IMG/VR virus record: IMGVR_UViG_3300037248_000049
Location: 1-64,000 of that record
Source: a virus
Length of the DNA stretch: 64,000 bases
Reading direction: 5' to 3' (one strand)
The position numbers and the translations under genes are program-made. The notes below the pieces were generated by a model, which saw only the letters and a program-made list of their open reading frames with translations, had not been told where the DNA came from and searched no databases. Position 1 is the stretch's first letter; each line of letters starts with the position of its first letter. Below, in pieces: positions 8,275-46,751 of the stretch.

Positions 8275-8496
8275 TCATGTCTGATCAGCCTTTCCGAAAA
8301 GAGCTTGGCGGGCGGCCTTCGCCCCTAACGCGGCCCTTAGCTTTTTGTAAAGTCGCAAGTCGTCCGCCGTCATCTCCGGGAGCGGCCCTCCATAAGCCAG
8401 CACTCGCGCTTTCGCCACGTTTGCCCGGTAGACCTCGGGCTGCGCTGCTGCCCGAGCCCGCGCCGCAGCCCGATACCGCGCTGTCGTCTCGCTCAT
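8275..8496 (-). CDS. Hypothetical protein, 73 aa
   Basis: Helical, Ala/Arg-rich protein (MSETTARYRAAARARAAAQ) with a second helix LRLYKKLRAALGAKAA. The start region reads GTGATG and overlaps the stop of the PEP-CTERM-like gene. No recognised family; the basic N-terminus could bind nucleic acid. Confidence 0.65.
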   Translation of the reverse strand: MSETTARYRAAARARAAAQPEVYRANVAKARVLAYGGPLPEMTADDLRLYKKLRAALGAKAARQALFGKADQT

Positions 8497-8750
8497 CACG
8501 ATTTCCTCGCGGGGTCGATGGGGACGACGTTGCCCGCAACGCTCCAGGGGCGCAGAGCGACAGCGCCCGCGAGGAACACCAGCGCCGCCAGCAGCAGCGC
8601 GAAGCTCGACGGCTCAGGGACGGCGACGGCCGCAGCGCCAACACCGGCACCGGCAGAACCGCCGCCGCCTCCCCCGAGCCCAATGGTAGGCCACCAGGCC
8701 CAAGCTACTCCTCCGGCTCCGGCGAGCGGGCCGGCGACGCACACCCACAC
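8496..8750 (-). CDS. Small membrane protein with PEP-CTERM-like signal
   Basis: Gly/Ala-rich protein whose C-terminal region reads VPEPSSFALLLAALVFLAG followed by ALRPW, the pattern of a PEP-CTERM sorting signal (V-P-E-P, hydrophobic span, then basic residues). It departs from the classical signal in carrying about 15 further residues after the helix. A first hydrophobic stretch (WVCVAGPLAGAGGVAWAWW) precedes it. Start uncertain: no ATG downstream of 8913; GTG at 8748-8750 is proposed, overlapping the membrane-protein gene upstream. PEP-CTERM proteins are normally processed by a host exosortase. Confidence 0.55.
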   Translation of the reverse strand: MWVCVAGPLAGAGGVAWAWWPTIGLGGGGGGSAGAGVGAAAVAVPEPSSFALLLAALVFLAGAVALRPWSVAGNVVPIDPARKS

Positions 8751-8881: not shown

Positions 8882-9091
8882 TCACGACGCGGCGTCCTCC
8901 ATCGGCAGCTTCCAAACGTCCGGGCGGATTTCGTGAAGAGGAATGCCCAGCGCGGCGTTAATTTTCAGCGCGCGCTTGACCGGCACGCGGTTGACCGCCT
9001 TCCAATAGTTAACGGTCGTGCGGTCTACGCCGGCAACCTTGCCTAGCTTTGCCGTGCCGCCAGCCAACTCGATAAGCTCGTCAATCTCCAT
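8882..9091 (-). CDS. Cro-like DNA-binding protein, 69 aa
   Basis: MEIDELIELAGGTAKLGK followed by VDRTTVNYWKAVNRVP is a YdaS/Cro-type HTH, ending with the phage-typical PLHEIRPDVW. The ATG at 9089-9091 sits just downstream of a perfect operator (9099-9115). A longer in-frame start exists but would run through the operators. It heads the leftward early operon (nuclease, methylase, replication), divergently from the repressor, so it is the likely lytic regulator. Confidence 0.85.
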   Translation of the reverse strand: MEIDELIELAGGTAKLGKVAGVDRTTVNYWKAVNRVPVKRALKINAALGIPLHEIRPDVWKLPMEDAAS

Positions 9092-9098
9092 GCCGAAA

Positions 9099-9115
9099 GG
9101 TTGGCACAGCCAACC
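9099..9115. promoter_or_regulatory. Repressor/Cro operator O1
   Basis: GGTTGGC-ACA-GCCAACC, a perfect 7-3-7 palindrome, 8 bases upstream of the Cro-like start codon. It is the best copy of a motif found four times around the repressor gene. Confidence 0.75.
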
Positions 9116-9133
9116 CGAGGAGGCAAGTAATTT

Positions 9134-9150
9134 TGTTGGGTCAGTCAACC
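9134..9150. promoter_or_regulatory. Repressor/Cro operator O2
   Basis: TGTTGGG-TCA-GTCAACC: one half-site differs from GCCAACC by one base, the other keeps GTTGG. It lies 35 bp from O1 in the cro/repressor intergenic region and 36 bp before the repressor ATG, the position expected for controlling both divergent promoters. Confidence 0.6.
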
Positions 9151-9185
9151 CATTGAATCGCAAGGTCTGTCACTTTGACGCTGCG

Positions 9186-9533
9186 ATGACGGACCCCCAG
9201 ATATTAGGTGCGCTGCTAAGGCGCTATCGAGAAAGCGCCGGACTCAAGCAGGCCGAGGTTGCGGCGCACATTAGAAGGGACCGTAGCACCTATGCGGGCT
9301 ACGAGAACGGCCACAGCCTTCCGGGGAGGGAGGCGCTTGTGGCACTAGCCGATTTGTTCAAGATTTCCTTGGACTTGCTAGCTTCGGCGGACGGCGGCGG
9401 CACTGACGCGGCGTCGCAGGCTCAAACCGAAGCCGAGGCGCTCGTCCTTCATTGCTTCCGCCGGCTTCCGAGCGATGAAGCCAAGGCGTACCTCGACCTT
9501 CTCCTCGCACGCGTCCGCAATCCCGGCAACTAA
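9186..9533 (+). CDS. XRE-family phage repressor (CI-like), 115 aa
   Basis: N-terminal HTH (LLRRYRESAGLKQAEVAA then RDRSTYAGYENG, residues 9-42), followed by a helical tail (residues 78-115) probably used for dimerisation. No LexA/CI-type Ser-Lys peptidase domain, so induction would not be by RecA-stimulated self-cleavage. The ATG at 9186 is preferred; an upstream in-frame ATG would lie inside the cro gene. Operator pairs on both sides mirror lambda OR/OL. Expected to maintain lysogeny. Confidence 0.85.
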   Translation: MTDPQILGALLRRYRESAGLKQAEVAAHIRRDRSTYAGYENGHSLPGREALVALADLFKISLDLLASADGGGTDAASQAQTEAEALVLHCFRRLPSDEAKAYLDLLLARVRNPGN

Positions 9534-9555
9534 GAGATCGCGGCATTCTGTCGCA

Positions 9556-9572
9556 GGTTAGCTAGGCCAACA
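9556..9572. promoter_or_regulatory. Repressor operator O3
   Basis: GGTTAGC-TAG-GCCAACA: same 7-3-7 layout as O1 with two changed bases. Just downstream of the repressor gene and upstream of the early-right operon. Confidence 0.6.
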
Positions 9573-9590
9573 TTTAGGGTGGACAACCCG

Positions 9591-9607
9591 CGTTGAACCT
9601 GCCAACC
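9591..9607. promoter_or_regulatory. Repressor operator O4
   Basis: CGTTGAA-CCT-GCCAACC: right half perfect, left half keeps GTTG. 35 bp from O3, the same spacing as O1-O2, and 36 bp before the PEP-CTERM start codon, just as O2 is 36 bp before the repressor start. Confidence 0.55.
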
Positions 9608-9642
9608 TGACCCCGTCAAACCTGATGGGGGTCCGCGCACAG

Positions 9643-10266
9643 ATGAAACAGCTACTCCTCGCCGGCACGATCCTCGGCGCGCTCGCGGCGCCGGCATGGG
9701 CCGGCCAAATCACGATCGGCGGCAGCCTCGGCACGTCCTACGACCTCGTGTCCACGGGAAACGGCACGATCGCGGCCAACTCGCCGGGGTATTGGGCGTC
9801 GGCGCTGTTCGACTCGGAGGTCGGGACGGTTCCGGACGGCGCGCATTTCGGCCCGACGACGTTCGCGACCGGCCCCGAGGTCGATGGCGTCTTTACGGTC
9901 GTCTCGGGCGGCGAGGAGGCGCTTTCGGTCGCCTTCCCGGACGGCGACACGGCCAGCGGGACGGCGCAGATTACCCAAATCGACGACGGCAGCCCGAACC
10001 CGCACATCGCATTCGACTGGACGTACGTGTCGTCGGGCGACCCGGCGTTCCTCGCCAGCTTCCCCGGAGGGACGACGGATGGCGAATATATCTTCGCGAC
10101 CGTGACAACCCTGCTCGACCAATTCGCATTGTCGCCGGGCGACGAGTTCCTGACCGGCTCGGCGGGGCAAATCGAGGACACGGCGGCCGTGCCGGAAGCT
10201 GGCACGCTGGCGCTCCTGGGGCTGGCGCTCGTCGGGCTCGGGGTTGCCAAGCGGCGCATCACCTAA
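9643..10266 (+). CDS. Secreted PEP-CTERM protein, first gene of early-right operon, 207 aa
   Basis: Sec signal peptide MKQLLLAGTILGALAAPAWA, then a beta-rich, Gly/Asp/Thr-rich extracellular domain of about 155 residues. It ends with VPEAGTLALLGLALVGLG followed by VAKRRIT: PEP-box (variant PEA), hydrophobic helix and basic tail, the full tripartite PEP-CTERM signal recognised by exosortases in exopolysaccharide-producing bacteria. The middle resembles PEP-CTERM proteins of the host type, no enzyme family seen. It lies directly behind operators O3/O4, so the repressor likely controls it. No exosortase gene is in the window; processing would rely on the host. Confidence 0.85.
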   Translation: MKQLLLAGTILGALAAPAWAGQITIGGSLGTSYDLVSTGNGTIAANSPGYWASALFDSEVGTVPDGAHFGPTTFATGPEVDGVFTVVSGGEEALSVAFPDGDTASGTAQITQIDDGSPNPHIAFDWTYVSSGDPAFLASFPGGTTDGEYIFATVTTLLDQFALSPGDEFLTGSAGQIEDTAAVPEAGTLALLGLALVGLGVAKRRIT

Positions 10267-10285: not shown

Positions 10286-10543
10286 ATGGTGGTCATCCTA
10301 AAGGGCAAAGTGCCCAATGCGCCCTGCGACCGCGTATTAGCGATTGAGGCAGTAGCAAAAGCAATTTGCGAGAGCGTCGGAGAAGACCCGGCAGACGGCA
10401 CAATGATGCTACTCACGGCCGCCGTTCATATCGCGATGCAGCACTCCGATAAGTCGATCAAAGATATCGCCACGCTGCTCGCGGAATGCCTCGGATGCGC
10501 GATCGTTGCGGCCGATGATTTCTTTAAACTTCGGAGCATCTAA
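10286..10543 (+). CDS. Hypothetical protein, 85 aa
   Basis: Helical protein with two hydrophobic helices (MMLLTAAVHIAMQHS and LLAECLGCAIVAAD) that look amphipathic rather than membrane-spanning. Codon use is slightly more AT-rich than neighbours. ATG at 10286 chosen over an upstream TTG. Its TAA overlaps the next ATG. Confidence 0.68.
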   Translation: MVVILKGKVPNAPCDRVLAIEAVAKAICESVGEDPADGTMMLLTAAVHIAMQHSDKSIKDIATLLAECLGCAIVAADDFFKLRSI

Positions 10544-12532: not shown

Positions 12533-13270
12533 ATGAACGCCTTCGAGCGCCACGGCATCAGGCATCTGTCGGCGTCGAGCATCAACCTCTACCGGGCCGA
12601 GCCGGCGCTGTGGGTCATGAAATATCTCTGGCGCGTCAGCGACGACGCCGGCCCCGGTGCATGGCGTGGGCAGGCGGTCGAGGCCGCGGTTGACCTTGTG
12701 CTTTACAAGAACTGCCCGGACGACGAAGCGATCGAAGTCGCGATCCAATCCTTCGAGTCCAAGGCTCAGGGCGACCTGGACGAGAAGGTAGTCAAGGAGC
12801 GCGAGGCGTTGCCGGCTTTCGTGCGCCAGGCCGCAAAGCTGCTACGCCCGCTCGGCGAGCCCGTCGCACGCCAGTACCGGGTTGAGCAATGGCTGGAGGG
12901 GATCGACGTGCCGATTGTCGGGTATGTCGACTATGTGTGGCCCGATCACCTGATGGAATTAAAGACGACGATGCGGATGCCGTCCTTCCCGCGCGACGAC
13001 CATGCGGCGCAGGTCGTGTCCTATGCCGACGCAATGGAGCGGCCGGCGGGGATTGCCTACGTGACGCCGGCCAAGGGGATCATCTACCCGAGCCTGATGC
13101 TCGACGCGACGGCGGCGCGATGGTCGATGCTGAGGGGCGCCAGGGCCATTCGCGGGCTGCTGTCGCGCATCGACGACAAAGAGCAGGCCGCCGCGATGTT
13201 CTCGCCGAACCTGTCGTCGTTCTATTGGACCGATGCGACCAAGGCTGTCGCGATGCAGATATGGGGCTGA
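12533..13270 (+). CDS. RecB/Cas4-type PD-(D/E)xK nuclease, 245 aa
   Basis: Core motifs of the RecB nuclease family in order: GYVDYV (130-135, metal-binding Asp133), MELKTT (141-146, catalytic Glu142/Lys144) and the RecB-specific Q-x3-Y as QVVSY (160-164). The N-terminal SASSINLYRAEPALWVMKY matches the family's first helix. No four-cysteine Fe-S cluster pattern, unlike Cas4. It directly precedes the ERF annealing protein, so it most likely supplies the 5'-3' exonuclease of a phage recombination pair. Confidence 0.88.
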   Translation: MNAFERHGIRHLSASSINLYRAEPALWVMKYLWRVSDDAGPGAWRGQAVEAAVDLVLYKNCPDDEAIEVAIQSFESKAQGDLDEKVVKEREALPAFVRQAAKLLRPLGEPVARQYRVEQWLEGIDVPIVGYVDYVWPDHLMELKTTMRMPSFPRDDHAAQVVSYADAMERPAGIAYVTPAKGIIYPSLMLDATAARWSMLRGARAIRGLLSRIDDKEQAAAMFSPNLSSFYWTDATKAVAMQIWG

Positions 13271-13272
13271 CT

Positions 13273-13992
13273 ATGGATACCGACGCCTGCCGCCGCAGCG
13301 AAGAGTGTGGCGAGTTGTTCACCGCTCTGGCGAGCGTGCAGCAGACGCTCGAGAATGTCGAGCGCGACGCCGAGAACCCCGGCTTCAAGCGCGGCAACAA
13401 GCCCAGCACCTATGCCTCGCTCGGGGCGGTCCTGGACCTTGTGCGGCCGAAGCTCGCGGGCGCCGGGCTGTCCATCTGTCAGATGCCGGTGAACGGCGAC
13501 GGCAGCAACATCGGCGTCACGACGCTGCTTGGACACAAGAGCGGCCAGTGGATCGAGTCGACCCTCTATGTCGCGCCGCAGCAATTCACCGCGCAGGGGG
13601 CGGGCAGCGTGATCACCTACCTGCGCCGGTACGCGGCAATGGCGATGGTCGGGCTGGCGCCGGAGGACGACGACGGCAATGCCGCGTCCATCAATGCGCC
13701 GACGACGACACAAGCGCAGCCAGCTGTCCGGTCGCCACCATCGCGCCCCGGTGGCCCCGCAAGGCGCGCTCCGGTTGACGGGCCTTCCGAGGAGGAATTG
13801 GCGTGCGCGCGCGGCGCATGGAAGCGGCTGCACGACGCGATGGAGAAGGCGAAGCTGCCGAAGCTGATCGACGAGATTGTGGAAATCGGCGCCGACGACC
13901 TCGCCAAGATCAAGGCATCAAGCCCGGACGCCTATGACGGGCTGATCCAATTCTCCATCGCGCGCAAGAACGAGATGTTGTCCGCCGCATGA
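13273..13992 (+). CDS. erf: ERF-family single-strand annealing protein, 239 aa
   Basis: ERF signature segments: NKPSTYASLGAVLDLVRPKL (43-62), GVTTLLGHKSGQW (81-93) and AQGAGSVITYLRRYA then MAMVGLAPEDDDGNA (107-137). A Pro/Ala-rich linker precedes a helical C-terminal part. Anneals complementary single strands during phage recombination or genome circularisation. Two bases after the exonuclease gene, which is its probable partner. Confidence 0.92.
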   Translation: MDTDACRRSEECGELFTALASVQQTLENVERDAENPGFKRGNKPSTYASLGAVLDLVRPKLAGAGLSICQMPVNGDGSNIGVTTLLGHKSGQWIESTLYVAPQQFTAQGAGSVITYLRRYAAMAMVGLAPEDDDGNAASINAPTTTQAQPAVRSPPSRPGGPARRAPVDGPSEEELACARGAWKRLHDAMEKAKLPKLIDEIVEIGADDLAKIKASSPDAYDGLIQFSIARKNEMLSAA

Positions 13993-15348: not shown

Positions 15349-15641
15349 GTGACGACTGGCGGCCAATCGCTACAGCACCGCGAGATGGATCAATTTTGAT
15401 TCTGTATTTGGGGGAAGACATTGAACGAACCTACGTGTCTCCAAAGGAAGCCGCGCGTTATTGCCTCGGTTTCTTTGAGGTCGCCGATCCCGAATGGGGC
15501 CGTCGAGGCGAATGGCTATCCATTGAGAGCGCTGAGGAAACATGGGGATATGGGTCAGAACTAACCGGCCCAATGACGGATACTAGCTGCATTCCATGCA
15601 AGCCGACGCACTGGATGCCGCTGCCGGAACCGCCGAAGTGA
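15345..15641 (+). CDS. DUF551-like protein, 98 aa
   Basis: Begins MSDDWRPIATAPRDGSILIL and ends THWMPLPEPPK, the two ends of the DUF551 pattern seen in many phage early regions; function unknown. ATGA overlap with the excisionase-like gene; its TGA overlaps the integrase GTG. AT-richer than neighbours. Confidence 0.82.
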   Translation: MSDDWRPIATAPRDGSILILYLGEDIERTYVSPKEAARYCLGFFEVADPEWGRRGEWLSIESAEETWGYGSELTGPMTDTSCIPCKPTHWMPLPEPPK

Positions 15642-16696
15642 TCGTGCGCATTCGCGGCGTTAAGCGCGTTCGCTCGAAAGGGCGCACCTACTACTACCAC
15701 CGCGCTACCGGCACACGGATCACCGCGCCACCGCACTCCGCCGCGTTTGTCGCCGAGGTCCATCGGCTCGATAAGGCGACCGATAGCACTCTTATTTTGA
15801 CAAAGTCGCGGCTCCAATCGCGGACAGAGCCCTATAAACGCGGCTCGTGGGGCTCTCTGGTGGCGGCATACCGCGCCAGCCCGGAGTTCTCCCGCCTCGC
15901 TCCTCGCACCAAGAGCGATTACGGCAAGGTGCTCGACTACCTCGCAGCGCTCGACGACATGCCGCTTGTTCAACTCACGTCGGCAACCTGCCTCAAAATC
16001 CGCGATCGGGCCTTCGCGCAGCACAAACGCAGGTTCGGCAACTATGTCGTCCACATGCTCTCGGTCGTGCTCGGCTGGGGCAAGCCGCGCGGCTATGTCG
16101 CCGAGAACGCCGCGCTCGGTCTTCCGAAGATCGCCAAGCCGCGCGACGCACCCGAAGCGAACCGCGCCTGGTCGGACGATGAATGCGCCGCTGTGCTCGA
16201 CGCCGCGACCGGCGGGCTCAAGGTCGCGGTCGCGCTCGCCATGTGGGCTGGCCCGCGCGGCGAGGATGTCGTGCGGATGTCGTGGTCGGCGTATGACGGG
16301 CAGCATGTCGAGTGGCGCCAGGGCAAGACCGGCAACGCCGTATGGCTGCCGGCGGACTATCGGCTGCGGGAAATCCTCGATGCGACCCCGAGAGTGGCGA
16401 CGACCATCGTCACGGGCGCGTCAGGACGGCCGTGGAAGCCTGCCACGCTGCGGAAAGAGTTTCGGGCGCTGATCCTGCGGCTGCTGGCGGATGGCCTCGT
16501 GCGGCCCGGCATCACGTTCCATGGGATGCGCACGACGGCGGGGAAGAACCTCGGCGACCTCGGCGGCGACATTCGGGCGATCCAGGCGCGGCTGGGGCAC
16601 AGCTCGCCGAACATGGCGCTGCATTATAGCCGTGGGTCCGATCGGAAAGAGGCTGCCAAAAGGGCGGTGCATGTGCTGGAACGGAGGAAGAAGTGA
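15638..16696 (+). CDS. int: Tyrosine recombinase (phage integrase), 352 aa
   Basis: C-terminal catalytic domain has the full tyrosine-recombinase set: Arg207 in AGPRGED, Lys230 in QGKTGNAVW, His295 and Arg298 in FHGMRTT, His321 in RLGHSSP and the nucleophile Tyr330 in ALHYSRG. The N-terminal basic segment (VRIRGVKRVRSKGRTYYY) is a likely arm-binding part, and residues 60-150 form the core-binding domain. GTG 15638-15640 overlaps the previous TGA; the upstream ATG is less likely. The stop codon is immediately followed by tRNA-Arg, the probable attachment target. Confidence 0.95.
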   Translation: MIVRIRGVKRVRSKGRTYYYHRATGTRITAPPHSAAFVAEVHRLDKATDSTLILTKSRLQSRTEPYKRGSWGSLVAAYRASPEFSRLAPRTKSDYGKVLDYLAALDDMPLVQLTSATCLKIRDRAFAQHKRRFGNYVVHMLSVVLGWGKPRGYVAENAALGLPKIAKPRDAPEANRAWSDDECAAVLDAATGGLKVAVALAMWAGPRGEDVVRMSWSAYDGQHVEWRQGKTGNAVWLPADYRLREILDATPRVATTIVTGASGRPWKPATLRKEFRALILRLLADGLVRPGITFHGMRTTAGKNLGDLGGDIRAIQARLGHSSPNMALHYSRGSDRKEAAKRAVHVLERRKK

Positions 16697-16773
16697 GCAC
16701 CCGTAGCTCAATAGGACAGAGCGTCCGATTTCTAATCGGAAGGCTGAGGGTTCGAGTCCTTCCGGGTGCGCCA
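16697..16773 (+). tRNA. tRNA-Arg (anticodon TCT), CCA encoded
   Basis: Complete cloverleaf: acceptor GCACCCG/CGGGTGC, D-arm GCTC/GAGC, anticodon arm TCCGA-TTTCTAA-TCGGA (anticodon TCT, reads AGA), T-arm GAGGG/CCTTC with loop TTCGAGT, discriminator G, CCA at 16771-16773. The first base follows the integrase stop codon with no gap. It may be the attP/attB tRNA (integrases commonly use tRNA 3' ends), a phage-carried tRNA for the AGA codon, or both. Confidence 0.95.
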
Positions 16774-16990
16774 CCCTGGAAAACGGTTTTCCAAAAATTC
16801 CGGTATATCCGCAGACTTTTCCAAAGTTGCAGAAATGCCACCTTGCAAATCAACACGGAAGAGAATGGGGTCCGGTGACCCCCACGGTCTTCAAATCCGA
16901 GCGGCATTTCCGGTTTCCGCGCTCGGAATGACCAGTTTTCCAAGAATTTCGTCACCCTGCTATCATGGGCTTCACCCTGATATGGAAAAC
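16697..16990. other. Candidate attP region with repeated TTTTCCA motifs
   Basis: After the tRNA, 287 bases to 17060 carry no convincing gene. TTTTCCA or its complement recurs at 16778-16792 (perfect palindrome GGAAAAC-G-GTTTTCC), 16817-16823, 16935-16942 and 16983-16990. CACCCTG recurs beside several of these. The hairpin GGGGTC-CGGT-GACCCC lies at 16867-16882. Repeated short sites next to an integrase and tRNA are typical of integrase arm sites (inference). Confidence 0.5.
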
Positions 16991-18576: not shown

Positions 18577-18653
18577 GGCCCCGTAGCTCAATTGGATAGA
18601 GCGCCGGTTTCCGGAACCGGAGGTTCTGGGTTCAACTCCTGGCGGGGTCGCCA
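18577..18653 (+). tRNA. tRNA-Arg (anticodon CCG), CCA encoded
   Basis: Cloverleaf: acceptor GGCCCCG/CGGGGTC (one G-U pair), D-arm GCTC/GAGC, anticodon arm CCGGT-TTCCGGA-ACCGG (anticodon CCG, reads CGG), T-arm CTGGG/CCTGG with two wobble pairs and an unusual T-loop TTCAACT, discriminator G, CCA at 18651-18653. Lies alone on the plus strand inside a minus-strand operon, behind its own promoter. The weakened T-arm hints at a phage-evolved tRNA. Confidence 0.93.
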
Positions 18654-19104: not shown

Positions 19105-19178
19105 GCCATGCCGCGATACAGTTTTACGCGATTGCTGATCGTCTGCTTGGCGTCGTCAGCCATCTTGTCTTTCGTCAC
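19095..19178 (-). CDS. Possible 27-aa micro-gene
   Basis: GTG at 19176-19178 overlaps the stop of the upstream membrane-protein gene (GTGA) and opens a 27-codon frame (TKDKMADDAKQTISNRVKLY ...). It overlaps the 3' end of the plus-strand gene by 10 bases. Only the coupling argues for it. Confidence 0.3.
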   Translation of the reverse strand: MTKDKMADDAKQTISNRVKLYRGMAHN

Positions 19179-19405
19179 TGACCGGCCTGACGCTGGTTGA
19201 TCGGCACGACGGCTCCGGTGCGCTGCTGCGGGTCAACCTGCCCCGGCGGGTGCGTGAACAGCCCCGCAAGGCCGGTGAACACCGCCCCGGCCGCCGTCAG
19301 GTAGCCGGCGTAGTATCCCGGCACGACCGGCGCAAATCCGCTGGCGACCAGCGCCAAGGCCAGGAAGGCCATCGCCAGGGAGCGCATCCAATTGGATGTC
19401 GTCAT
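19175..19405 (-). CDS. Small membrane protein, holin-like, 76 aa
   Basis: Two hydrophobic segments (MRSLAMAFLALALVASGFAP and YLTAAGAVFTGLAGLF) separated by a short PVVPGYYAG turn, then a polar Pro/Gln-rich C-terminus. Size and two-helix hairpin topology suit a class II holin. Position in the lysis region agrees, but sequence alone does not prove it. Confidence 0.65.
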   Translation of the reverse strand: MTTSNWMRSLAMAFLALALVASGFAPVVPGYYAGYLTAAGAVFTGLAGLFTHPPGQVDPQQRTGAVVPINQRQAGQ

Positions 19406-19460
19406 TCAGTCCGATCCGCGAATCGGAAGGCGCGACCCGCCCCGGCCGCGCCTCGCCGGA

Positions 19461-20180
19461 TCACATGCCGCTCGTTTCGTTGTACTGCATCGGCGCCACA
19501 AAGGTCGTCGGGGGCGGCGTGACGACGGCGGCCGTGATGTTCACCGTCAGCGGCGAGCCGACGATCGCGGGCTGAACGCCGGCCGGGTCGGTCCAGGTCG
19601 CGAACAGCGTAACCGATTCGGTCGGGGCCGATGCGCCGGCCGTAAAGGTGAACGTGACGCCGTCGGAAGCGAGCGCCACCGAGAGGTCGGACGGGCTCGC
19701 TTCGCTGAGCGGCATCGACCAGGTGATTTGCGAGCCGGGAAAGACCTGCGGCGTCGGAGACGAATCTTCGCACTGAACCCCGTCCGACGACCCGCCGGCG
19801 GTGAGGTTGATGCTCGTAACGACAGACATGGCGGCTGCACTCCAATATTGCAGTGGCGGGGAGAACGGGATTGTCGGGTTGACCTCCGATTCGATCAACG
19901 TCAGCTCGGCGCTGATTGCGTCCAGCTCCGAATTGACGGTGGCGAACTGGCTGTTCAAAAGTGCTGTCAGGGTCGCGGCAGTGGTGGTGACGAGCTGGCT
20001 CAGGGCGGCTATCGCCGCCTTGATGGCGGCAGTGTCGCTTTGCAGGTCGGCGATTACGCTGCCCTGGCTCTTCTGGTTGTTGATGACGACGTTGATGTTC
20101 TCGACGATCTGCACGATGTCGGAATTGGTAGCCGTTTGGGCGACTGCCGCATCAGCGTGGTGGTGGAACGGAGTGTGCAT
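19461..20180 (-). CDS. Virion or envelope-associated protein with coiled coil and Ig-like domain, 239 aa
   Basis: Residues 20-100 are a long coiled coil (VENINVVINNQKSQGSVIAD; heptad Leu/Ile/Val). Residues about 115-220 look like an Ig-like beta sandwich (GVTFTFTAGASAPTESVTLF; PLTVNITAAVV), and the C-terminus is Pro-rich. Composite trimeric fibre or adhesion-module architecture. No signal peptide, unlike the downstream fibre cluster. Confidence 0.7.
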   Translation of the reverse strand: MHTPFHHHADAAVAQTATNSDIVQIVENINVVINNQKSQGSVIADLQSDTAAIKAAIAALSQLVTTTAATLTALLNSQFATVNSELDAISAELTLIESEVNPTIPFSPPLQYWSAAAMSVVTSINLTAGGSSDGVQCEDSSPTPQVFPGSQITWSMPLSEASPSDLSVALASDGVTFTFTAGASAPTESVTLFATWTDPAGVQPAIVGSPLTVNITAAVVTPPPTTFVAPMQYNETSGM

Positions 20181-20212
20181 GGGGCTATTGTAGCACGAGC
20201 CGGGCCATTGGG

Positions 20213-20503
20213 CTATTGGAGGTTTTTACCGGGATCGCGGTCGCCCTTCTGCTCGATCGTTTTCCGCTTTGCCCTCACGGCGTCGTCCAGAGCGTGCAGC
20301 GCCCTCGTGATATGGTGGTCGCGCACCACTCTGCGACTGGCGTGGTAGTGATGCGCCGGCGGGGGCAACAGGATGATTGGGGCGGGCTCTGGTGGAGGCG
20401 GCGCTACAGGCGGGGTCGCCGCAGTGCAGCCGCCGAGCAACAGCAGGGTGGTCACGGCCCTAATCTTTGCGCCGCAGCAATTTGATAAATCTCCAAATTT
20501 CAT
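20213..20503 (-). CDS. Pro-rich lipoprotein, o-spanin (Rz1)-like, 96 aa
   Basis: Lipoprotein signal with basic n-region (GAKIRAVTTLLLLGGC; lipobox LGGC, Cys26), followed by a Pro-rich mature part (TPPVAPPPPEPAPIILLPPP), as in outer-membrane spanin subunits. The start at 20503 lies inside the upstream micro-gene, an Rz/Rz1-style overlap. A GTG at 20455 is possible but would leave no basic n-region. Predicted outer-membrane lysis protein. Confidence 0.7.
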   Translation of the reverse strand: MKFGDLSNCCGAKIRAVTTLLLLGGCTAATPPVAPPPPEPAPIILLPPPAHHYHASRRVVRDHHITRALHALDDAVRAKRKTIEQKGDRDPGKNLQ

Positions 20504-20570
20504 CTGCCACCCAAAGAGCTAGCGCTAAATCTATCAGCACATAAGCAATGATTTGGATGTCATTCATCAT
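20460..20570 (-). CDS. 36-aa membrane peptide
   Basis: MMNDIQIIAYVLIDLALALW then VADEIWRFIKLLRRKD: one membrane helix with a basic C-terminus. Start codons overlap the stop of the spanin-like gene (ATGATGA). The lipoprotein gene starts within it. Possibly a lysis-accessory peptide. Confidence 0.6.
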   Translation of the reverse strand: MMNDIQIIAYVLIDLALALWVADEIWRFIKLLRRKD

Positions 20571-20992
20571 CGTACGTGAATATTTTCCTTCGTCGCGAGC
20601 TGCACCTTCAAGTCGGCGAGAGCCTGGAGCATGATCGCGTTCTGACTGTCGATCTTGTCCCATCGGCTCACGTCGCTCGCGTAGTGCTCCGCCTCTTCCT
20701 TCTCGACATAGGTCAGCCGCTCTTCGACCGAGGCCGCCTTGGCTTCGTCGGCGGCGATCCGGTTGAGGGCGGAGTCGATGGCGTACTGACTGGCGCGCTG
20801 AGATGCGTTGATCGCGTCCGACAGGTGCCAGGTCGTCCCTACCGCAGCGCCGACGATCATCACCGTGCCAGTGACCAGCGTCACAATCATGGAGGCCCCA
20901 GGCGAGACATCCTTCAACGCGGTCAATGCGTTCTCGCCCCACGCCCACAGAGGAAAACTACGTGAGACATATGTACCATTACGAACGGTCAT
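20567..20992 (-). CDS. Membrane-anchored coiled-coil protein, i-spanin-like, 141 aa
   Basis: One membrane helix (MIVTLVTGTVMIVGAAVG, about residues 35-52) followed by a long charged coiled coil (about 60-135: VEERLTYVEKEEAEHYASD). This N-in, periplasmic-coiled-coil topology is that of inner-membrane spanins, and the lipoprotein just downstream would be the partner. No ribosome site is obvious at ATG 20992. Confidence 0.65.
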   Translation of the reverse strand: MTVRNGTYVSRSFPLWAWGENALTALKDVSPGASMIVTLVTGTVMIVGAAVGTTWHLSDAINASQRASQYAIDSALNRIAADEAKAASVEERLTYVEKEEAEHYASDVSRWDKIDSQNAIMLQALADLKVQLATKENIHVR

Positions 20993-23399: not shown

Positions 23400-26300
23400 C
23401 TAGAAATGGTTGTCGTAGAGCCAGCGCGGGTTCGTGTTGAATATCGTCGATATCGGCGCGACCTGCGTCAGGGTAGAGGCAATCGCCGCAGTCGTCGTGG
23501 GGTTGGACCCAGTCAGGGCCTCCCACCAGTTCGCCATTCCGTAGCCCTCGGCGCCGCGCCCGACGGGATTCTGATAATCGTTGCCGCTCTCGATATCACC
23601 GTAGGAGGGAGCCGGGCACGACAGGCCGGTTATGAACCCGAACTGGCTGGCCCCGGTATTGGCCGGGTAGATGACCGCGCTCGGTGGCGTCGCCGTCGAA
23701 AGTGTCGTCAGCGTGCCCTGCGTCCCGGACGATCCCACCTGCGTCCAGATGAACTGCTGGCCCTCGGTAATCGCGATCGAGTGGCCCATCCCATCGGTCG
23801 CGGTGAACGGAAATGCCCCCGATTGGTAGTCATTTGGCGTCGTGCCGTGGGCCTGGTCAATATTGGCCAGAGTGACGATCGTCCCGGTGGGCCACGGCGT
23901 GCTGACCGTCGATGGTTGGGGGCCGGGGTCCGGATAGTCGTTTCTCGGTGAGAAACCTAGCTGGTCATAGAAGACCAACTGGTCGCCGGATGCTGGGCAC
24001 GGCATGTTTGTAGTGCATTCCCACTGCCAGCTTCCCTGTGCGGTCTGCTGAAGGGTGACTGTGGTCCCGCTGATCGACTTGACGCTGATATTCGACCCGT
24101 TCGAGAAGTAATGCGGTGTCACATTCGGGTTGGATACATCCAGGACAAGCTGCCCAGGAACTATTCCGGCATTCGATGCGACTGTCACGGTCGTAGTCGC
24201 AACCGTGGCCGCAGCGGTAGTGGTCGTAGAGATTGATGCCGGCATCGTAACTGAGCCACTCAGAGTCAGGCCGGTAAGGCCGGTAGAGCCGGTAACGTAA
24301 GTGCCCCATGGTACGTTCGCTGGCGTAGTAAGATCGTAAACCTCACTGCCGTCGATGATGGTCGCGGTGCCTCCCGGATTGTAGAAGTTGATCAGGTCGC
24401 CGGAGGCAACGGTCACGGTATTGCTTATCGTAACCGTTGTCGTGCCCACAGCCGAGACCCGCGTTCCGCTCGGGATCGCCGATGGATTCGTGAGGTCGAA
24501 GACGTACTGAGCATTGTCGGAAAACGCGGGGCCGCCGGAGAAGTTGAGGACATTGCTTGCGCTGGTGGCCGAAGTCGTCGCCTGCACGACCGTCCCGTTA
24601 TCCGTGTTGCTGTTGACCGTGATCGTCGATCCCGAAGACGACGCGACTGGGAATGCCCACCATCCCTCGGCGGTATTCGCCGTGTACCCAGCAAGGAACA
24701 CGTCGCTCCCAGCCTCATAGTTAAGCGCGTTGCCGTTTCGATTGTACTGGATATAGGCGTTGCCGGCCTGTAGCGTTGTGGCATCCCAAGACGTAAGCGG
24801 CTGTAGCGTCGTCGTACTTACGAATGTTGGAAATACATAGACGAAGGCATTGTAGATGCACTGCGACAGGTCCGGCATCGCGAAGTTATTGAATACGGCA
24901 TCGGCAACCGTCACCAATGCCGGAATGGCCCCGCCAAGATGCATGTACTCGTTCTCAATCTCCAGATCGGCATAGCCCTCGGTAAAGAACTCCTGCATGA
25001 TGCCGCCATAGGGTGCCGGCGGTGATAGTGGCGTGGTGTACCCGATAAACGGAATGTAAAGGCCATTGGCGGTCATGCTGTAGCCCTTGCTGATCGCCGT
25101 CGGCGACGTAGTTCCGGCGGTTCCGCTTCCGACATAGGGGAACCACGCCGCATACGCGTCCCAAGCCTGGACGGTCTTGTAATAGGCCATCTGGCCGTCG
25201 GGCTCATTGTAGTCGAACAACGCCACCGGCTCGAAAGCATGCATCCCCCAGGCCGACGCGCGCACCGATCCCTGGACCGGCCCCTCGGTATAGTACGTGT
25301 TGCCGTTGAACGCGACGTTGCGAGCCTGTGGCGCGTAGATGTTCATGTCCACAAGCGTGCCGTTGAAGTCCAGCTCGAAGAGCATGTACCGGCGCCCTTC
25401 GGTGATGTACGGGTAGATTGCAAAGTTGCCGAAGTGCTGCACGTCGAATGCGCCGCCGCCTGAGCCTCCGTAGGGCTCATCTAATCCCCAGGCCATATCG
25501 AACTGCGTCGGTGGACCCACGGTTGACCCCATACCAGCATTGGGGCGCACCGGGTCAGTGAACCTGCCGGGTTTCGTCCAGCCTGACGCCCCGTTCGGAA
25601 TCCAGTTGACCGGATTGCTCGTCAATGGCTCGCGTGGGCCGCCGATCTGACCGTCATTGCCCAGCGCCCCGACGCGTCCGCTCTGAGCGAACGAAGCTCC
25701 GCCGTCGGGCGCCGTGTCCTCTACCTCGTAATGCCACGCATTGACCGTAGTCTCTGCGCCGAGCCACCCGTGGTCGCCGGCCTGACCGGAGTCCGACACA
25801 TCGTCGTTGCAGTCGAACGAGTACGGCACGTAGGGGCAAGCCATAAAGGTCGCGCCCATCCAGTCGTGGTCGTCTGTCGCCGGCAGCGTATTGCTCACCA
25901 TCGTAATCTGTTGGAGCGGCGGCAGGATATGCGAGGCGTGCAGATATGTCTTGTCCGATGTCGTCAGGCTGGCGACCACATTATTGTAGGCCGTCGAGCT
26001 CGACAGCGAGCCCCCGACTACCCAGAAGGGCAGCCCCGCAGTATCGACAAACCACCAGGCGCCCCCGCTGGCGACCATGTTGATGCCGGTGTATCCGGTA
26101 TTGCCGTTGGCGGCGCCGTAGAGCTCGGTCGAGTTGTTCAGCAAGTCGGCATTGAAGGTCCAATTCTGGATCGTCCCGCCGGCCGAATAGACGGCATTGT
26201 CGCTCTCGATCGCGACGCTATAGCCCCAAATGCCGCCGCCGGAGTTCTTCCACGCCTCCACGATGGCATGAAACCACACTGGCTGGATGACCGTCTTCCA

Positions 26301-28007
26301 TGAGCAGCTTCCGTCGCTGATTGCGGTCCCGACCCCTACGGGCGCGGTCGAGCCGGACGTGCAGTTGGCGTTCGGCTGGTAGGCATTTCCGAGCGAGCTT
26401 ACCGTGCTGCTGGTCGTGTAAGGGGTGCTCGCCGCCCATGCCGACAGCCCGGCGTCAACGGGATAGCCCCACACCTGGTAGCCGTTCTTGACGCTGTCGC
26501 CGGCGTATTGGCAGACCTGCGACGTGGTGGCGCCCAGGTTGGTGCAGAGCGGCACGCTGGTCGTGCCGGAGAAGATGGCGCCGAGGTCGAAGTAGAATGT
26601 GCCGCTGCCGACAGTCGGGCATCCCGAGCCGGGCGTGTTGACGACGACGCCATTCGGCCAGGTAACCCCGGACCCGTTGACGTAAGAGGTGAACGACAGC
26701 ACCGGGGCCGTGCCCGAGCACCCTTGGACCGTCACGGTGAGGCCGCCGCAATTCGACCCTCCCCCGCCGCAATTAAACCCGAGGATGGGGTTGTCGTTTA
26801 TGACGCCGCTGCTGACCGCACCACTGCCGGACGGCACGACGATCCCGGCGAGCATTCCCTGCGTAATGTTGTTGACGGGGACGTAAGCCGTCGTGACATC
26901 GGTCAGCTTGACCTTGAAATCGGTCCCGGAGAAGTCAGTCGATAGGCTTCCGCCAGTGACGCTCGGCCAACCGCCGGAGCAGTCGAGTGTCCACGAGACA
27001 GTGGAATAGGTGTCGGAGGCGATGTTGGTCGGCTTGAACCCCGAAAATGAGAAGAACCGCGTCGAGCCGTCCTCCCAGGTGTCCGCGAAGTCGCTGGCGC
27101 TCCATTGCGCGAGCGTCACGCCGCCAATGCTGGGGTCCGCGTGGCAGCCGCTCGGCACCGCGCCCTTGGGGAAGTAGACCCCGGAGTTGACCGGCGTTAC
27201 ACCGCTAGGCGACGCGGAGCCGCTGTTGTTGAAAAACGAGTTCGTCTCGACGAACGTGCCGCCGGTAATCGTGAACGCCTGTTGCTGCGGGCTGTTCGAT
27301 ATGCCGGCTTGCGAGATCGAGAGACACACCTGATAGGTGCCGGCCGCCAGCGTGGTCGCCAGCTCGAGGTTCCAGGACGGCGCGCTGCCGGCGACCTGGA
27401 AATCGGCGTTGTTCGCCCCATTCGTCCCGTTGCATGTGGCGCCCGTCGTGGCGAGCACGACCGTTCCCGTGGTCGCGGGCGAGGCCGGCGACATCGGCGC
27501 GGTAATCTGCCCGACGATTGTTCCTGTTCCCAGGCCGCCCGTGAAGGTCGTGTTGGACAAGCTCGGCGCCGGAGTGACAAAGGTCTGCGCGGCCGGCGGA
27601 CTGCACGTCACCACGACAGCCTGCGTGTATGGCGATCCGCCGAGCCCGGCCTGCGTCGCGACGATGTTCAGGTTCAGCGTCGTCGTGCTGCCGCAGGTCG
27701 GCGTGCTACCGTTGGTCGTCAGGTTCGCCGGCAGGGTCGTGCTCGACAGCGAGAAGTCCGCCGCCGCAGTCCCGGTCAGCGACAGCGTGCCGGTAAAGAG
27801 AGGGGACATCGGGCTCAGCGTCACCGCAACGGCGGCGATCACCGTTCCCGAACTCGCCCCGCTCGTATAGCTGCCGGTTGACGGCGAGACGCTGGCAATC
27901 GACTGGCCTGCCGTCGGCGATCCGCCCGTAAAATGCAGTAAACGGGCACTAGCCGGCGAGAGCGCCGCGAGCAGTAAGACCAGCCATAACTGGACGACCC
28001 TCAACAC
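23400..28007 (-). CDS. Giant secreted protein with Ig-like repeats and lyase-like domain, 1535 aa
   Basis: Signal peptide at the GTG start: LRVVQLWLVLLLAALSPASA then RLLHF. Then two or three Ig-like domains (GTLSLTGTAAADFSLSS; AAGTYQVCLSISQAGIS), a segment with VYFPKGAVPSGCHADP and WEDGSTRFFSFSGF reminiscent of the N-terminal domain of PcRGLX/YetA-type polysaccharide lyases, a His/Trp-rich central part (HFGNFAIYPYITEGRRYML), and a C-terminal Thr/Val-rich beta-repeat region. Central part is paralogous in layout to the next gene. Predicted exported and disulfide-rich; tail spike or secreted glycan enzyme. Enzyme assignment is tentative. Confidence 0.7.
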   Translation of the reverse strand: MLRVVQLWLVLLLAALSPASARLLHFTGGSPTAGQSIASVSPSTGSYTSGASSGTVIAAVAVTLSPMSPLFTGTLSLTGTAAADFSLSSTTLPANLTTNGSTPTCGSTTTLNLNIVATQAGLGGSPYTQAVVVTCSPPAAQTFVTPAPSLSNTTFTGGLGTGTIVGQITAPMSPASPATTGTVVLATTGATCNGTNGANNADFQVAGSAPSWNLELATTLAAGTYQVCLSISQAGISNSPQQQAFTITGGTFVETNSFFNNSGSASPSGVTPVNSGVYFPKGAVPSGCHADPSIGGVTLAQWSASDFADTWEDGSTRFFSFSGFKPTNIASDTYSTVSWTLDCSGGWPSVTGGSLSTDFSGTDFKVKLTDVTTAYVPVNNITQGMLAGIVVPSGSGAVSSGVINDNPILGFNCGGGGSNCGGLTVTVQGCSGTAPVLSFTSYVNGSGVTWPNGVVVNTPGSGCPTVGSGTFYFDLGAIFSGTTSVPLCTNLGATTSQVCQYAGDSVKNGYQVWGYPVDAGLSAWAASTPYTTSSTVSSLGNAYQPNANCTSGSTAPVGVGTAISDGSCSWKTVIQPVWFHAIVEAWKNSGGGIWGYSVAIESDNAVYSAGGTIQNWTFNADLLNNSTELYGAANGNTGYTGINMVASGGAWWFVDTAGLPFWVVGGSLSSSTAYNNVVASLTTSDKTYLHASHILPPLQQITMVSNTLPATDDHDWMGATFMACPYVPYSFDCNDDVSDSGQAGDHGWLGAETTVNAWHYEVEDTAPDGGASFAQSGRVGALGNDGQIGGPREPLTSNPVNWIPNGASGWTKPGRFTDPVRPNAGMGSTVGPPTQFDMAWGLDEPYGGSGGGAFDVQHFGNFAIYPYITEGRRYMLFELDFNGTLVDMNIYAPQARNVAFNGNTYYTEGPVQGSVRASAWGMHAFEPVALFDYNEPDGQMAYYKTVQAWDAYAAWFPYVGSGTAGTTSPTAISKGYSMTANGLYIPFIGYTTPLSPPAPYGGIMQEFFTEGYADLEIENEYMHLGGAIPALVTVADAVFNNFAMPDLSQCIYNAFVYVFPTFVSTTTLQPLTSWDATTLQAGNAYIQYNRNGNALNYEAGSDVFLAGYTANTAEGWWAFPVASSSGSTITVNSNTDNGTVVQATTSATSASNVLNFSGGPAFSDNAQYVFDLTNPSAIPSGTRVSAVGTTTVTISNTVTVASGDLINFYNPGGTATIIDGSEVYDLTTPANVPWGTYVTGSTGLTGLTLSGSVTMPASISTTTTAAATVATTTVTVASNAGIVPGQLVLDVSNPNVTPHYFSNGSNISVKSISGTTVTLQQTAQGSWQWECTTNMPCPASGDQLVFYDQLGFSPRNDYPDPGPQPSTVSTPWPTGTIVTLANIDQAHGTTPNDYQSGAFPFTATDGMGHSIAITEGQQFIWTQVGSSGTQGTLTTLSTATPPSAVIYPANTGASQFGFITGLSCPAPSYGDIESGNDYQNPVGRGAEGYGMANWWEALTGSNPTTTAAIASTLTQVAPISTIFNTNPRWLYDNHF

Positions 28008-31000
28008 CCGTACCCCGCTGAGTACGTGCAACCTAAGAGCCAATAGGGAACGGCCCCGCCAGCAGTCGCATTGATCGGGTTGTAATTGGTGATCGTCGTA
28101 TCGGCGTCGGTAAAATCTCCCAACACTGCCTTGGCATAGCTCGCATCGGCCTGGTACTCGGCGAACCGACTGTCGCTTCCAGCGCGGCCAGTCACAATCT
28201 CCCAATTGGCATTACCGCTAGGACACGAGGCGTTCGGCACGATCCCCCAATTGGATTGCGTATTGGCCGTGAAGGTCAGCACTCCGGTACACGATCCGCC
28301 CGAGAATCCCGTTGCGACCTCCCCGTGGGTGGCATCGGTCGGGCAGTAGTAGTACCAGGTTCCCTCTACGGCCGGAGGCGGCGGCCACGGCCCGACGTTG
28401 TATCCATTGGGCGTCATCAGGACCTCGCCGCCCTCATCGACGTTCGCGGGAGTAATTCGCGACCCCGCCGGCATCGGCGTTCCAGACGACAGAGGGTAGT
28501 CGGTCGTGTTTCCTCCGACGCTGGTGAGAACGCTGGACCCGTTAGTCGTCGTCCAACCGCCCTGATGTTCGGGGATGATGGCGCTGAGCATTGGCTGCTG
28601 CGGATTGGTCGGATCGGTGCTGTTCCAGCCCGGTATCGGAGTTAGACCACCGATTGTCGTCAGGAGTTCGTCAGGCACATAGTCGATTGTGTTGTAAGGG
28701 CACGATTGACCCGTTTCCTTGACGAAGTAATTCCGCACCATGTAGGTGATGATCTGGTCCAGGTCAGGAAACGTGTGGTCGTACCACTTGTACTCTTTCA
28801 GCAGCTCCATGACCCAGTACCCGGCCATGAATTGTGCCAGCACCTGATTACCGCCGCAGCTCTGGTACTGACCCATCGTAGCGAAGCTGGCTGAGCGCGT
28901 GTCGCCGGTTGGGCCGTATCCATTGCCGCACTGGCCGACGAACTCGATGACACGCCTGATGATCGCGTAGTCGATGCCGTTCAGGTATTGGTAATACGAC
29001 TGATCAGGTTCGGAGGTTGGAAGGAAAATCGCGGCCTGCGCTATTGCCGACATCGACCAGGCTACTTGCCTAACGCCATCTCCGGTGCAGCCAGCCGTCG
29101 GCGTCGTAACTGGCGACGTGCCGGTGCTGAAATAGATTTGGCGATCGGTCGTGTAGCACTCGATGGCCGCCGCGGATGCGGCATCGTCCATCGCACGCAG
29201 TACCCAGCGCTCGCCCTCGATCATGTAGTCAAGCTGGAAGTGCCCCGAACCCCAGTGACCCCAGTCGAGCACGGTCTGACCGGCTGTCTGTGTCAGGGGC
29301 GTGGCGCCGCTGGCAGTCATGTCGTAGGTCGATGCGGTCGTCCGCACTGGGGTCATAACGGATGCGGAAGACCAGCCCGAGGAGCCGATGTAGTTCACGG
29401 CGTACCCAGTCGCCGGCTCCTTGTTGCCGGCGGTGATCGCGTTCTGCCCCGCTGCGGCCATACGCATGCTCTCGAGCCATCCCCAGCCGTGGTCCGACGC
29501 GATCGGGGCGACGAGATACCACATGGCCTCATTGAGCGGCAGCGGGCCGACGAAGTTGTGCGAGCCGCCGTTCCCGAGCACCAGGACCGCATCCACGCAA
29601 TCGAAACCGAATGGATAGTAGGAACACTCGTCGGTAGACCCGTTCTGCGTTCCCGTCTCTGTCAGCACCTGCGGCGTGACGAGGCTCGACGTGCGCGCGT
29701 TGTCGTCGTAGGGCGGGATCAGCCCCGTACCTTTCAGGTAAGCCTCATCCCCGGTCGTCGGCGTCGGGAAGACTGCCTTCAATACTGCGTCATTGGCCGA
29801 GAGCGCCCCTGTCGAATCGAAATTGTCGACCTGGTTATTGGCATCGTTCGTCAGCCAGCCGCCGAACAGCGGATGCTGAATGCCCTCGTACTCCGGGTTG
29901 GCCGTCACCCCACTGCCGCCGCACCAGCCCCGGATCGGAGCCGAGCCGTTCTGCCAGCACGCATCATACATCCAGCTCGGAACGGTCGTGCTGGCTTGGT
30001 AGAAGCCGGAGCTTATCATCCCGTTCGCACGAAACCCGTAGGTCGTGCCGTCGACGTTCTTCAGGTGCTCGACGATGATGTCGTAGGCCAGCCACGGATG
30101 CGGCGCGCCTCCGGTATTGTCCAAGCACGGGCCGCGAGCCTCCCATGCGTCATCGAGCGGCCCCTTTTTGAACTGGACCGCAGTGGACGCCGTCGTATTG
30201 AACTCGCAGACGTAGCTGCCGGAGCCGTCGACGGCGCAGCCTGAACCGCCACTGACGACGCTTGCCGACGCGGCCAGGTTAGTCGACCCGCTGTAGGTCA
30301 CGTCGACCACGGGCGCTACCGAGCATCCGTAAATCGTCCCGACCGCCTGAGTGCCGCACCCGGCCCCGGAATTAGTACAGTCGTAGCCCAAGGTGGCGAC
30401 GGTGCCGCCCAGGCCGCCCGCGTAGCGCACGAACGCGCTTGTGACAGCGCCGCCGCTGACGTGCCAGCCTATTGCATTGTAAGGCGGGACGCCCGGCAGA
30501 TTGGACGTGACCTGCGACTCATTGTTTAGCTCGACCTTGTAATCCGTGGCGCCAGTCACGTCGGCGACCGTGCCGGAGGACGTGTTGTTGTAGCTTCCGA
30601 GCTGGGAAGTCCAGGTGATTTGTTCCGAGCCTCCCGCCGTCAGCTGAGGCAGAAAGAACGTGAACACCCCGCCGCGCAGCGACCCGTCAGGCCAATACAC
30701 AAGTTCATCGGCCTGGTAGAGAACAGGCGACCCGCCGACGGTCGGAACCGCGATATAGCCCGTGGGCACAACTCCAAGGGCGAACCAAGCCGGCTGCTGC
30801 TTGGGGAAGCAAGTGTTGCCGCTGGTGACGCAGGTCTGTTTCGCAGCCGTCGGAGTCGTCGAGCCGGACGTATTCGTGACCGTCATCGTATAGACGACAG
30901 AGCTTCCGCTGCTCGGCGGCGATCCGCCATGGACCTTGATCAGCAGTGCCGCATCGAGCGGCCCGGCGGCGGCCAGGATCAACAAAAGGGCGAGCCAAAG

Positions 31001-31198
31001 ACGCTGAATGTATGTACGATAGCAGCTGGCGCGGCTCAGGGCCGCGATCCCGGAGGCAAAACGTGAAGCATCTTCGCTCGAACGACGCCGGGCTGTGGCA
31101 GATTTTGCGCGGATTCTGGTGGATGATCCGGTCTTACCGCACGCTGCGGCGACACCAGCTGCCGCTGCCGCCAGGGCCGTAAGGATGTTCCGCGTCAT
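28001..31198 (-). CDS. Large exported lyase-like protein, about 1065 aa
   Basis: The ATG at 31196-31198 overlaps the upstream stop, but a clear signal peptide (IQRLWLALLLILAAAGPLDA) begins about 65 residues later, so the true start may be internal at a non-ATG codon. Then an Ig-like strand, FALGVVPTGYIAVPTVGG and LVYWPDGSLRGGVFTFFLP (PcRGLX/YetA-like first domain), a helical barrel-like middle with HWGSGHFQLDYMIEGERW, and many cysteines. Predicted polysaccharide lyase or binding protein, exported. Paralog of the downstream 1535-aa protein. Confidence 0.68.
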   Translation of the reverse strand: MTRNILTALAAAAAGVAAACGKTGSSTRIRAKSATARRRSSEDASRFASGIAALSRASCYRTYIQRLWLALLLILAAAGPLDAALLIKVHGGSPPSSGSSVVYTMTVTNTSGSTTPTAAKQTCVTSGNTCFPKQQPAWFALGVVPTGYIAVPTVGGSPVLYQADELVYWPDGSLRGGVFTFFLPQLTAGGSEQITWTSQLGSYNNTSSGTVADVTGATDYKVELNNESQVTSNLPGVPPYNAIGWHVSGGAVTSAFVRYAGGLGGTVATLGYDCTNSGAGCGTQAVGTIYGCSVAPVVDVTYSGSTNLAASASVVSGGSGCAVDGSGSYVCEFNTTASTAVQFKKGPLDDAWEARGPCLDNTGGAPHPWLAYDIIVEHLKNVDGTTYGFRANGMISSGFYQASTTVPSWMYDACWQNGSAPIRGWCGGSGVTANPEYEGIQHPLFGGWLTNDANNQVDNFDSTGALSANDAVLKAVFPTPTTGDEAYLKGTGLIPPYDDNARTSSLVTPQVLTETGTQNGSTDECSYYPFGFDCVDAVLVLGNGGSHNFVGPLPLNEAMWYLVAPIASDHGWGWLESMRMAAAGQNAITAGNKEPATGYAVNYIGSSGWSSASVMTPVRTTASTYDMTASGATPLTQTAGQTVLDWGHWGSGHFQLDYMIEGERWVLRAMDDAASAAAIECYTTDRQIYFSTGTSPVTTPTAGCTGDGVRQVAWSMSAIAQAAIFLPTSEPDQSYYQYLNGIDYAIIRRVIEFVGQCGNGYGPTGDTRSASFATMGQYQSCGGNQVLAQFMAGYWVMELLKEYKWYDHTFPDLDQIITYMVRNYFVKETGQSCPYNTIDYVPDELLTTIGGLTPIPGWNSTDPTNPQQPMLSAIIPEHQGGWTTTNGSSVLTSVGGNTTDYPLSSGTPMPAGSRITPANVDEGGEVLMTPNGYNVGPWPPPPAVEGTWYYYCPTDATHGEVATGFSGGSCTGVLTFTANTQSNWGIVPNASCPSGNANWEIVTGRAGSDSRFAEYQADASYAKAVLGDFTDADTTITNYNPINATAGGAVPYWLLGCTYSAGYGC

Positions 31199-36302: not shown

Positions 36303-36304
36303 CC

Positions 36305-46460: not shown

Positions 46461-46751
46461 GGACAGAGTCCGCCTTCCGTATCCTCACCTCACGATGAGG
46501 AGCCAGCTTAGAGGGTATAGCACTGCTGCCTTGTATCGGGGGCCAGCCGCTCACCCCTGCTTTATGACCTTTCGGCCGTTTGGCGCAGGAAGCCGTAGAC
46601 GAGGATCGTCGCAGTGTTGCCCGCAATCCTAGCTGGCGTCGGAAATGCAGCGGTCGAAAGGTGAAGTGCCCGCCCTCTCCAGCGCTTGCTCCACCACGCT
46701 TCAATTTACGGGAGCATGGGCGACCGTGAGCAGCGATCGGGCATTCGAGGC

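Follow-up and report, generated by a model that had tools for sequence, protein, structure and literature searches.

The window analysed here, a 64,000-nucleotide stretch of DNA, comprises bases 1–64000 of an IMG/VR virus record of 64,809 bp (locus L096). The ends of the record carry imperfect direct repeats (1–281 versus 64529–64809, 96.8% identity), implying that the record, despite not being flagged as complete, probably represents a complete, circularly permuted genome. In the window we found matches to a tape measure protein, a major head protein, a head morphogenesis protein, an integrase, an ERF protein, a VRR-NUC protein and a DNA methylase, together with a weak match to a terminase (E = 4e-5). 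The DNA of the window is phage DNA; in this respect the first-pass annotation, which had read the region as phage rather than bacterial, is borne out by the head, tape-measure, terminase, integrase and ERF matches and by the end repeats.

The open reading frame at 9643–10266 (+) encodes a PEP-CTERM protein of 207 residues and is the first gene of a rightward early operon. It is followed on the same strand by a gene of unknown function (10286–10543), a PD-(D/E)XK nuclease gene (12533–13270, PF12705) in the early region, a gene for an ERF-type annealing protein (13270–13992, PF04404, E = 5e-20) and one for a tyrosine integrase (15596–16696, PF00589), the last being indicative of a temperate lifestyle. 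Directly after the integrase stop codon begins a complete tRNA-Arg(TCT) (16697–16773, +), and TTTTCCA repeats resembling integrase arm sites lie at about 16785–16950. This tRNA was considered as a pointer to the host and named none: its best matches, in the order of the Acetobacteraceae metagenome-assembled genome (MAG) G041 discussed below, reached only 82%, which makes a tRNA carried by the phage more probable than a copy of attB. A second tRNA-Arg (CCG) is found at 18577–18653 (+). The late region contains very large open reading frames (1601, 1085 and 1361 aa, within 23400–38562, −); its proteins of 1085, 576 and 584 aa had no PHROG match, and the 1361-residue protein had no Pfam match.

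The protein encoded at 9643–10266 opens with a Sec signal peptide, MKQLLLAGTILGALAAPAWA (9643–9702, +), recognised as an N-terminal hydrophobic stretch, with the cleavage site AWA-GQ placed by eye. The sequence then continues as MKQLLLAGTILGALAAPAWA-GQ... into a body of 162 residues and closes with VPEAGTLALLGLALVGLGVAKRRIT, the PEP-CTERM sorting signal (10186–10266, +), made of a VPEA box (a variant of the commoner VPEP), a hydrophobic helix and a KRR end. A profile search of the C-terminus, which the first-pass annotation had suggested as a check, was positive: the protein scored 23.8 bits against the Pfam PEP-CTERM profile PF07589 (curated cut-off 20.7; residues 182–205) and 17.0 bits, just above the cut-off of 16, against TIGR02595 (residues 183–206). 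The hydropathy plot showed two hydrophobic stretches only, at residues ~3–26 and ~180–206, with no other membrane helix. The earlier description of a Sec signal combined with a complete tripartite C-terminal signal therefore stands. When the last 40 residues were shuffled 20,000 times, the box–helix–basic layout was never obtained.

The mature body has no Lys or Arg and no Cys in its 162 residues, with 12.3% Thr and 9.3% Ser, whereas Lys plus Arg average 6.9% in the large late proteins of the same phage. The curated tail profiles, the signal peptide with its topology, and the body composition all place the protein among PEP-CTERM proteins. Bacterial members of the family were described as having the same composition bias, signal peptides and topology (Haft et al., PMC1569441). 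The best family match was to the profile of flocculation-associated PepA (PMC9850573; NF033554, floc_PepA; E = 1.6e-8, 34.7 bits, residues 72–205), below its equivalog cut-off of 80 bits, and the phage protein is not a member of that family. In a simple consensus scan, no clear −24/−12 match to a sigma-54-type site was seen upstream of the gene in the window phage or in its relative G001 (see below). Such a site is usual for PEP-CTERM genes in Proteobacteria, and is not obligatory. A single-sequence AlphaFold2 model was unusable (pLDDT 35), and no fold was recognised for the body.

Comparison with G001 also helped to define the gene. The G-run upstream differs by one base between the two phages (GATGGGGGTCC in the window, GATGGGGTCC in locus L002), which breaks the frame of an alternative ATG at 9625 in L002 and thereby supports the MKQ start at 9643. 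Third codon positions held 26 of the 35 substitutions, and dN/dS was 0.018/0.184, i.e., about 0.1, values indicating that the gene is under purifying selection. On these sequence criteria, the open reading frame is a real coding gene with a complete PEP-CTERM signal. A second, weaker PEP-CTERM-like open reading frame, also present in G001, lies on the other strand, within the Cro-led operon (8496–8750, −). Its tail, VPEPSSFALLL, exceeds the PF07589 cut-off (22.2 bits); it shows no clear signal peptide, a poor basic end and a weak third-position bias (7/7/13).

Upstream of the PEP-CTERM gene lies an immunity region. A CI/DicA-like repressor gene (9186–9533, +; HTH_31, PF13560, E = 5.7e-16; NCBIfam RstR and DicA matches below cut-off) is divergent from a gene for a Cro/DicC/YdaS-like regulator (8882–9091, −; PF15943, 30.9 bits against a cut-off of 30; DicC match below cut-off), which is followed leftward by replication-type genes. 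The repressor gene is flanked on each side by a pair of operator-like sites, both pairs having a 35-bp spacing. On the Cro side, oR1 (GGTTGGCACAGCCAACC, 9099–9115) has perfect palindromic arms and is the only site without mismatches in the 64 kb, and oR2 (TGTTGGGTCAGTCAACC, 9134–9150) has one mismatch. On the other side, oL1 (GGTTAGCTAGGCCAACA, 9556–9572) has two mismatches to GGTTG-N7-CAACC and oL2 (CGTTGAACCTGCCAACC, 9591–9607) has one, the latter ending 35 bp before the ATG of the PEP-CTERM gene. The pattern was derived from the intergenic palindrome of the scanned region itself, and the window contains 44 sites with up to two mismatches against 29 expected; consequently, what carries information is that the best sites cluster and are equally spaced.

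In the lambda immunity region the order is oR–cI–oL, and N is the first gene of the pL transcript. The window phage resembles lambda in its divergent repressor and Cro-like genes, in the predicted operators flanking the repressor, and in the PEP-CTERM gene occupying the N position on the strand that leads toward the recombination genes and int. The lambda-N-like placement proposed earlier thus agrees with what we found, the gene being the first behind the second operator-like pair on a strand running through ERF to the integrase. Unlike in lambda, this first gene encodes an exported protein and not a recognised antiterminator, and the repressor is DicA/RstR-like rather than of the CI type. We recognised no sigma-70-like promoter upstream of the gene. 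This arrangement predicts that a stable lysogen keeps the gene silent and that infection or induction switches it on early. The first-pass annotation had expected expression to follow lysogeny versus lytic entry; the operator-side position agrees with this, and the layout adds the direction, repressed in the lysogen and early otherwise. It would not, then, be an ordinary lysogenic-conversion gene, unless read-through from the repressor transcript adds a low level of expression in lysogens, which is possible since no terminator-like site was found between the repressor and PEP-CTERM genes.

The only close relative found was G001 (locus L002, 66,965 bp), in which the PEP-CTERM protein is kept at 97% amino acid identity. 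Between the shared flanks, the window segment at ~8906–9610 has no homology in G001, and the window repressor is absent from it. In its place, G001 has a candidate regulator of its own with TGCGCA palindromes around it, at 7078, 7925 and 7959. The last two are 34 bp apart, and the 7959 site ends ~36 bp before the ATG of the same PEP-CTERM gene; as TGCGCA is not over-represented in the G001 locus, the evidence here lies in the position of the palindromes. An operator-like layout thus precedes this gene in two immunity types. The gene downstream of the PEP-CTERM gene has also been exchanged in G001, and no homologs of the window phage's capsid, terminase and tape-measure genes were detectable there. 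The tRNA-Arg(TCT) is missing from the corresponding place in G001. Among records of complete size, the closest capsid protein (96%) belongs to G002, which lacks the early module and gave no PEP-CTERM match at E ≤ 0.01.

The window phage is a mosaic (compared over 1.7–20.9 kb and 41–64 kb), its early half being ~95% identical to G001 and its late half ~77% identical in nucleotides to G002. A misassembly of two pieces is a less likely explanation, because G001 shares blocks within the late half too (19137–20893, 33394–36398 and 46462–46869). The segment 33394–35112, shared at 96.5%, may reflect exchange of a large tail-region gene. When the nuclease and VRR_NUC proteins served as queries for more phages sharing the early module, G001 was again the only one to appear. 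The capsid protein itself marks a large family of uncultivated phages (L003–L082, 58–100% identity; near-complete members of ~60–67 kb), to which the nearest annotated phages (Manatee Spring) show only 34%.

In none of the ~39 (38 or 39) relatives found through the major capsid protein (MCP) did PF07589 exceed its cut-off, nor did it in any of 14 control genomes. That virion lineage can thus do without the gene; G001, which exceeds the cut-off, had been included because of its early module. Since the gene is common to phages with unlike repressor regions, capsids and terminases, it behaves, as far as the compared sequences tell, as mobile cargo in a repressor-controlled position, retained behind whichever repressor is there.

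The whole protein, used as a tblastn query, had no match in 50,697 annotated phages or 72,556 plasmids, the tail alone had none among the annotated phages, and a search of genome contigs with the protein yielded no relative. Homologs in other phages, which the earlier annotation had proposed to look for, came from IMG/VR, where scanning with alignments of the tail gave 6 loci in one scan and 44 in another, one of these loci being that of G001. PF07589 exceeded its cut-off in all of the 39 further virus records tested after these scans; as the scans were tail-based, this figure attests to the reality of the tags and not to their frequency, the ~39 MCP relatives being the less selected sample. 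We left out L144 and L145 as phage evidence (an isolate-derived record with five copies, and long bacterial-looking proteins). Most of the proteins are ~180–275 residues long and have an N-terminus resembling a signal peptide by a hydropathy heuristic, and their bodies average 1.3% Lys plus Arg, 12% Thr and 10% Ser, in keeping with the PEP-CTERM fingerprint. Several of them also match the PepA profile. At 14 loci a phage-family gene (DNA polymerase, helicase, primase, SbcC-like nuclease, terminase, portal or virion protein) lies within ~6 kb, helicases and SbcC-like proteins not being phage-specific on their own. By profile and context, PEP-CTERM proteins do recur in other phages.

The bodies of these phage proteins fell into twelve groups of at least two members plus 16 singletons, the window body being related to that of G001 only. 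In 14 of the 39 records, two PEP-CTERM genes lie within ~1.3 kb of each other. Tandem pairs of unlike PEP-CTERM genes, ~0.7–0.9 kb apart, were noted in the phage contigs L149, L150, L151, L154, L155, L157, L167, L168, L164, L175, L130, L140 and L152, and one body family of such pairs recurs next to primase and SbcC-like genes. None of ten selected genes near a PEP-CTERM gene in the other phages had an HTH or repressor match, meaning that the operator-type layout was seen for the pair of window phage and G001 only. Overall, it seems to us more likely than not that exosortase tagging marks a widespread and so far undescribed class of phage cargo: phages of many unrelated kinds would have put the tag on diverse bodies independently, often in tandem, and would use the host exosortase to remodel the surface of the infected cell.

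Exosortase (PF09721) was not detected in any of 57 phage records (the window record, G001, 17 MCP relatives and 38 other PEP-CTERM virus records), and a host enzyme would consequently be required. On the bacterial side, 385 genomes belonging to the same class as G041 were compared, and 51 of them have an exosortase; among the seven whose proteins match the phage protein, mostly via its tail, six do (hypergeometric P = 2.6e-5). One of the matching genomes, G585, has its exosortase gene ~5 kb away from the matching gene. G041 is the sole MAG in which a related capsid gene is present at full length, which makes it a weak pointer to the host; exosortase was not detected in this MAG, which may be incomplete.

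Full-text searches of the literature, with subscription papers and preprints largely outside their reach, yielded no paper that, judged by title and abstract, deals with a phage-encoded PEP-CTERM protein; the study whose title came nearest mentions PEP-CTERM only for genes of the host Microcystis (PMC12642866). The closest known system is the bacterial PEP-CTERM/exosortase (EpsH) cargo (TIGR02595/PF07589; PMC1569441), with which the phage protein shares the signal peptide, the PE box with helix and basic end, and a body low in Lys, Arg and Cys and high in Ser and Thr, besides passing both curated cut-offs. It differs in being phage-encoded, in having operator-like sites in place of a sigma-54 site, and in the genome around it, which has no exosortase and holds one strong and one weak copy. 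Among exported phage proteins, Ltp of Streptococcus phage TP-J34, a lipoprotein encoded in the lysogeny module, excludes other phages (PMC3952083). The likeness extends to phage origin, export and location, whereas Ltp is a lipoprotein of a Gram-positive host and is transcribed in the prophage, in which the PEP-CTERM gene is expected to be repressed.

Phage T5 makes an early envelope protein, the outer-membrane lipoprotein Llp, that blocks the receptor. We propose a comparable manner of working, implying no kinship; Llp has no exosortase tag. Upon infection or induction, repression at the oL-like operators, to which we infer that the repressor binds, would be lost and the first rightward early gene expressed. 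By analogy with the known PEP-CTERM system, Sec would export the protein, the C-terminal helix would hold it transiently in the inner membrane, and a host exosortase would cut at the VPEA box, passing the product to the outer envelope or the EPS. The altered surface might then stop other phages, or released progeny, from attaching or injecting productively. That the gene encodes a phage-borne substrate of the host exosortase, expressed early and altering the envelope for exclusion or receptor masking, is a reading to which we give about even credence. The exclusion role, taken on its own, is its most speculative part and is offered tentatively. For a surface-directed protein expressed early, exclusion or receptor masking appears to fit best, a role in EPS or aggregation coming next.

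This latter role is the main rival, and we regard it as somewhat unlikely: instead of excluding phages, a PepA-like protein would, while infection proceeds, change how floc, capsule or matrix is retained, which would help progeny to get to cells nearby or spare the cell that makes it. PepA is indeed the best full-length-type profile match, shared by several other phage PEP-CTERM proteins, and its overexpression in Aquincola lowers the released soluble EPS and raises the bound polymers (PMC9850573). However, the score falls far below the family cut-off, the shared tail may supply most of it, and bacterial pepA is under sigma-54, for which the phage gene has no clear upstream site. Distinctly less probable is a protein that stays uncleaved in the periplasm, tethered to the inner membrane, and there prevents the injection of DNA in the manner of Ltp or other tethered superinfection-exclusion proteins, its exosortase tag being a relic or unused in the actual host. 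The signal peptide and C-terminal anchor would give such a topology without exosortase, and none was detected in G041, but both phages keep the full tripartite signal with a PEP-CTERM-type composition, the tag occurs in 39 further virus records, and exosortase is enriched in the bacterial genomes matching the tail.

A decoy that saturates the host exosortase, and so deprives the surface of the host's own PEP-CTERM proteins or of EPS, would suit the early, repressor-controlled position read from the layout and a tag common to many unrelated bodies, as expected if the tag outweighs the body. We consider it very improbable, because a pure decoy needs neither the purifying selection on this body nor the conserved families into which other phage bodies fall. 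As for a chance resemblance in an ordinary phage membrane protein, or bacterial DNA binned as virus, the motif is short and reads VPEA in place of VPEP, and host DNA can occur in IMG/VR records in general. Against this, profile, composition and topology agree independently, the cut-off was exceeded by no MCP relative lacking the early module and by no control genome, phage genes flank both sides, and a second phage record has the same gene, so that this explanation is largely refuted and hardly credible.

PEP-CTERM/exosortase is a major system by which environmental Gram-negative bacteria sort proteins to their surface, yet it is poorly understood, most of all in what the cargo does. If our preferred reading of an early, host-processed envelope protein is true, a cargo under a phage repressor, kept through exchange of repressor and capsid, would make cargo function testable by infection phenotypes, and phage infection would be linked to biofilm and EPS behaviour. 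Phages would also have an additional route for placing proteins on the host surface, and the recurrence of tagged proteins suggests that they use the exosortase of the host to furnish the surface of the cell with proteins of their own.
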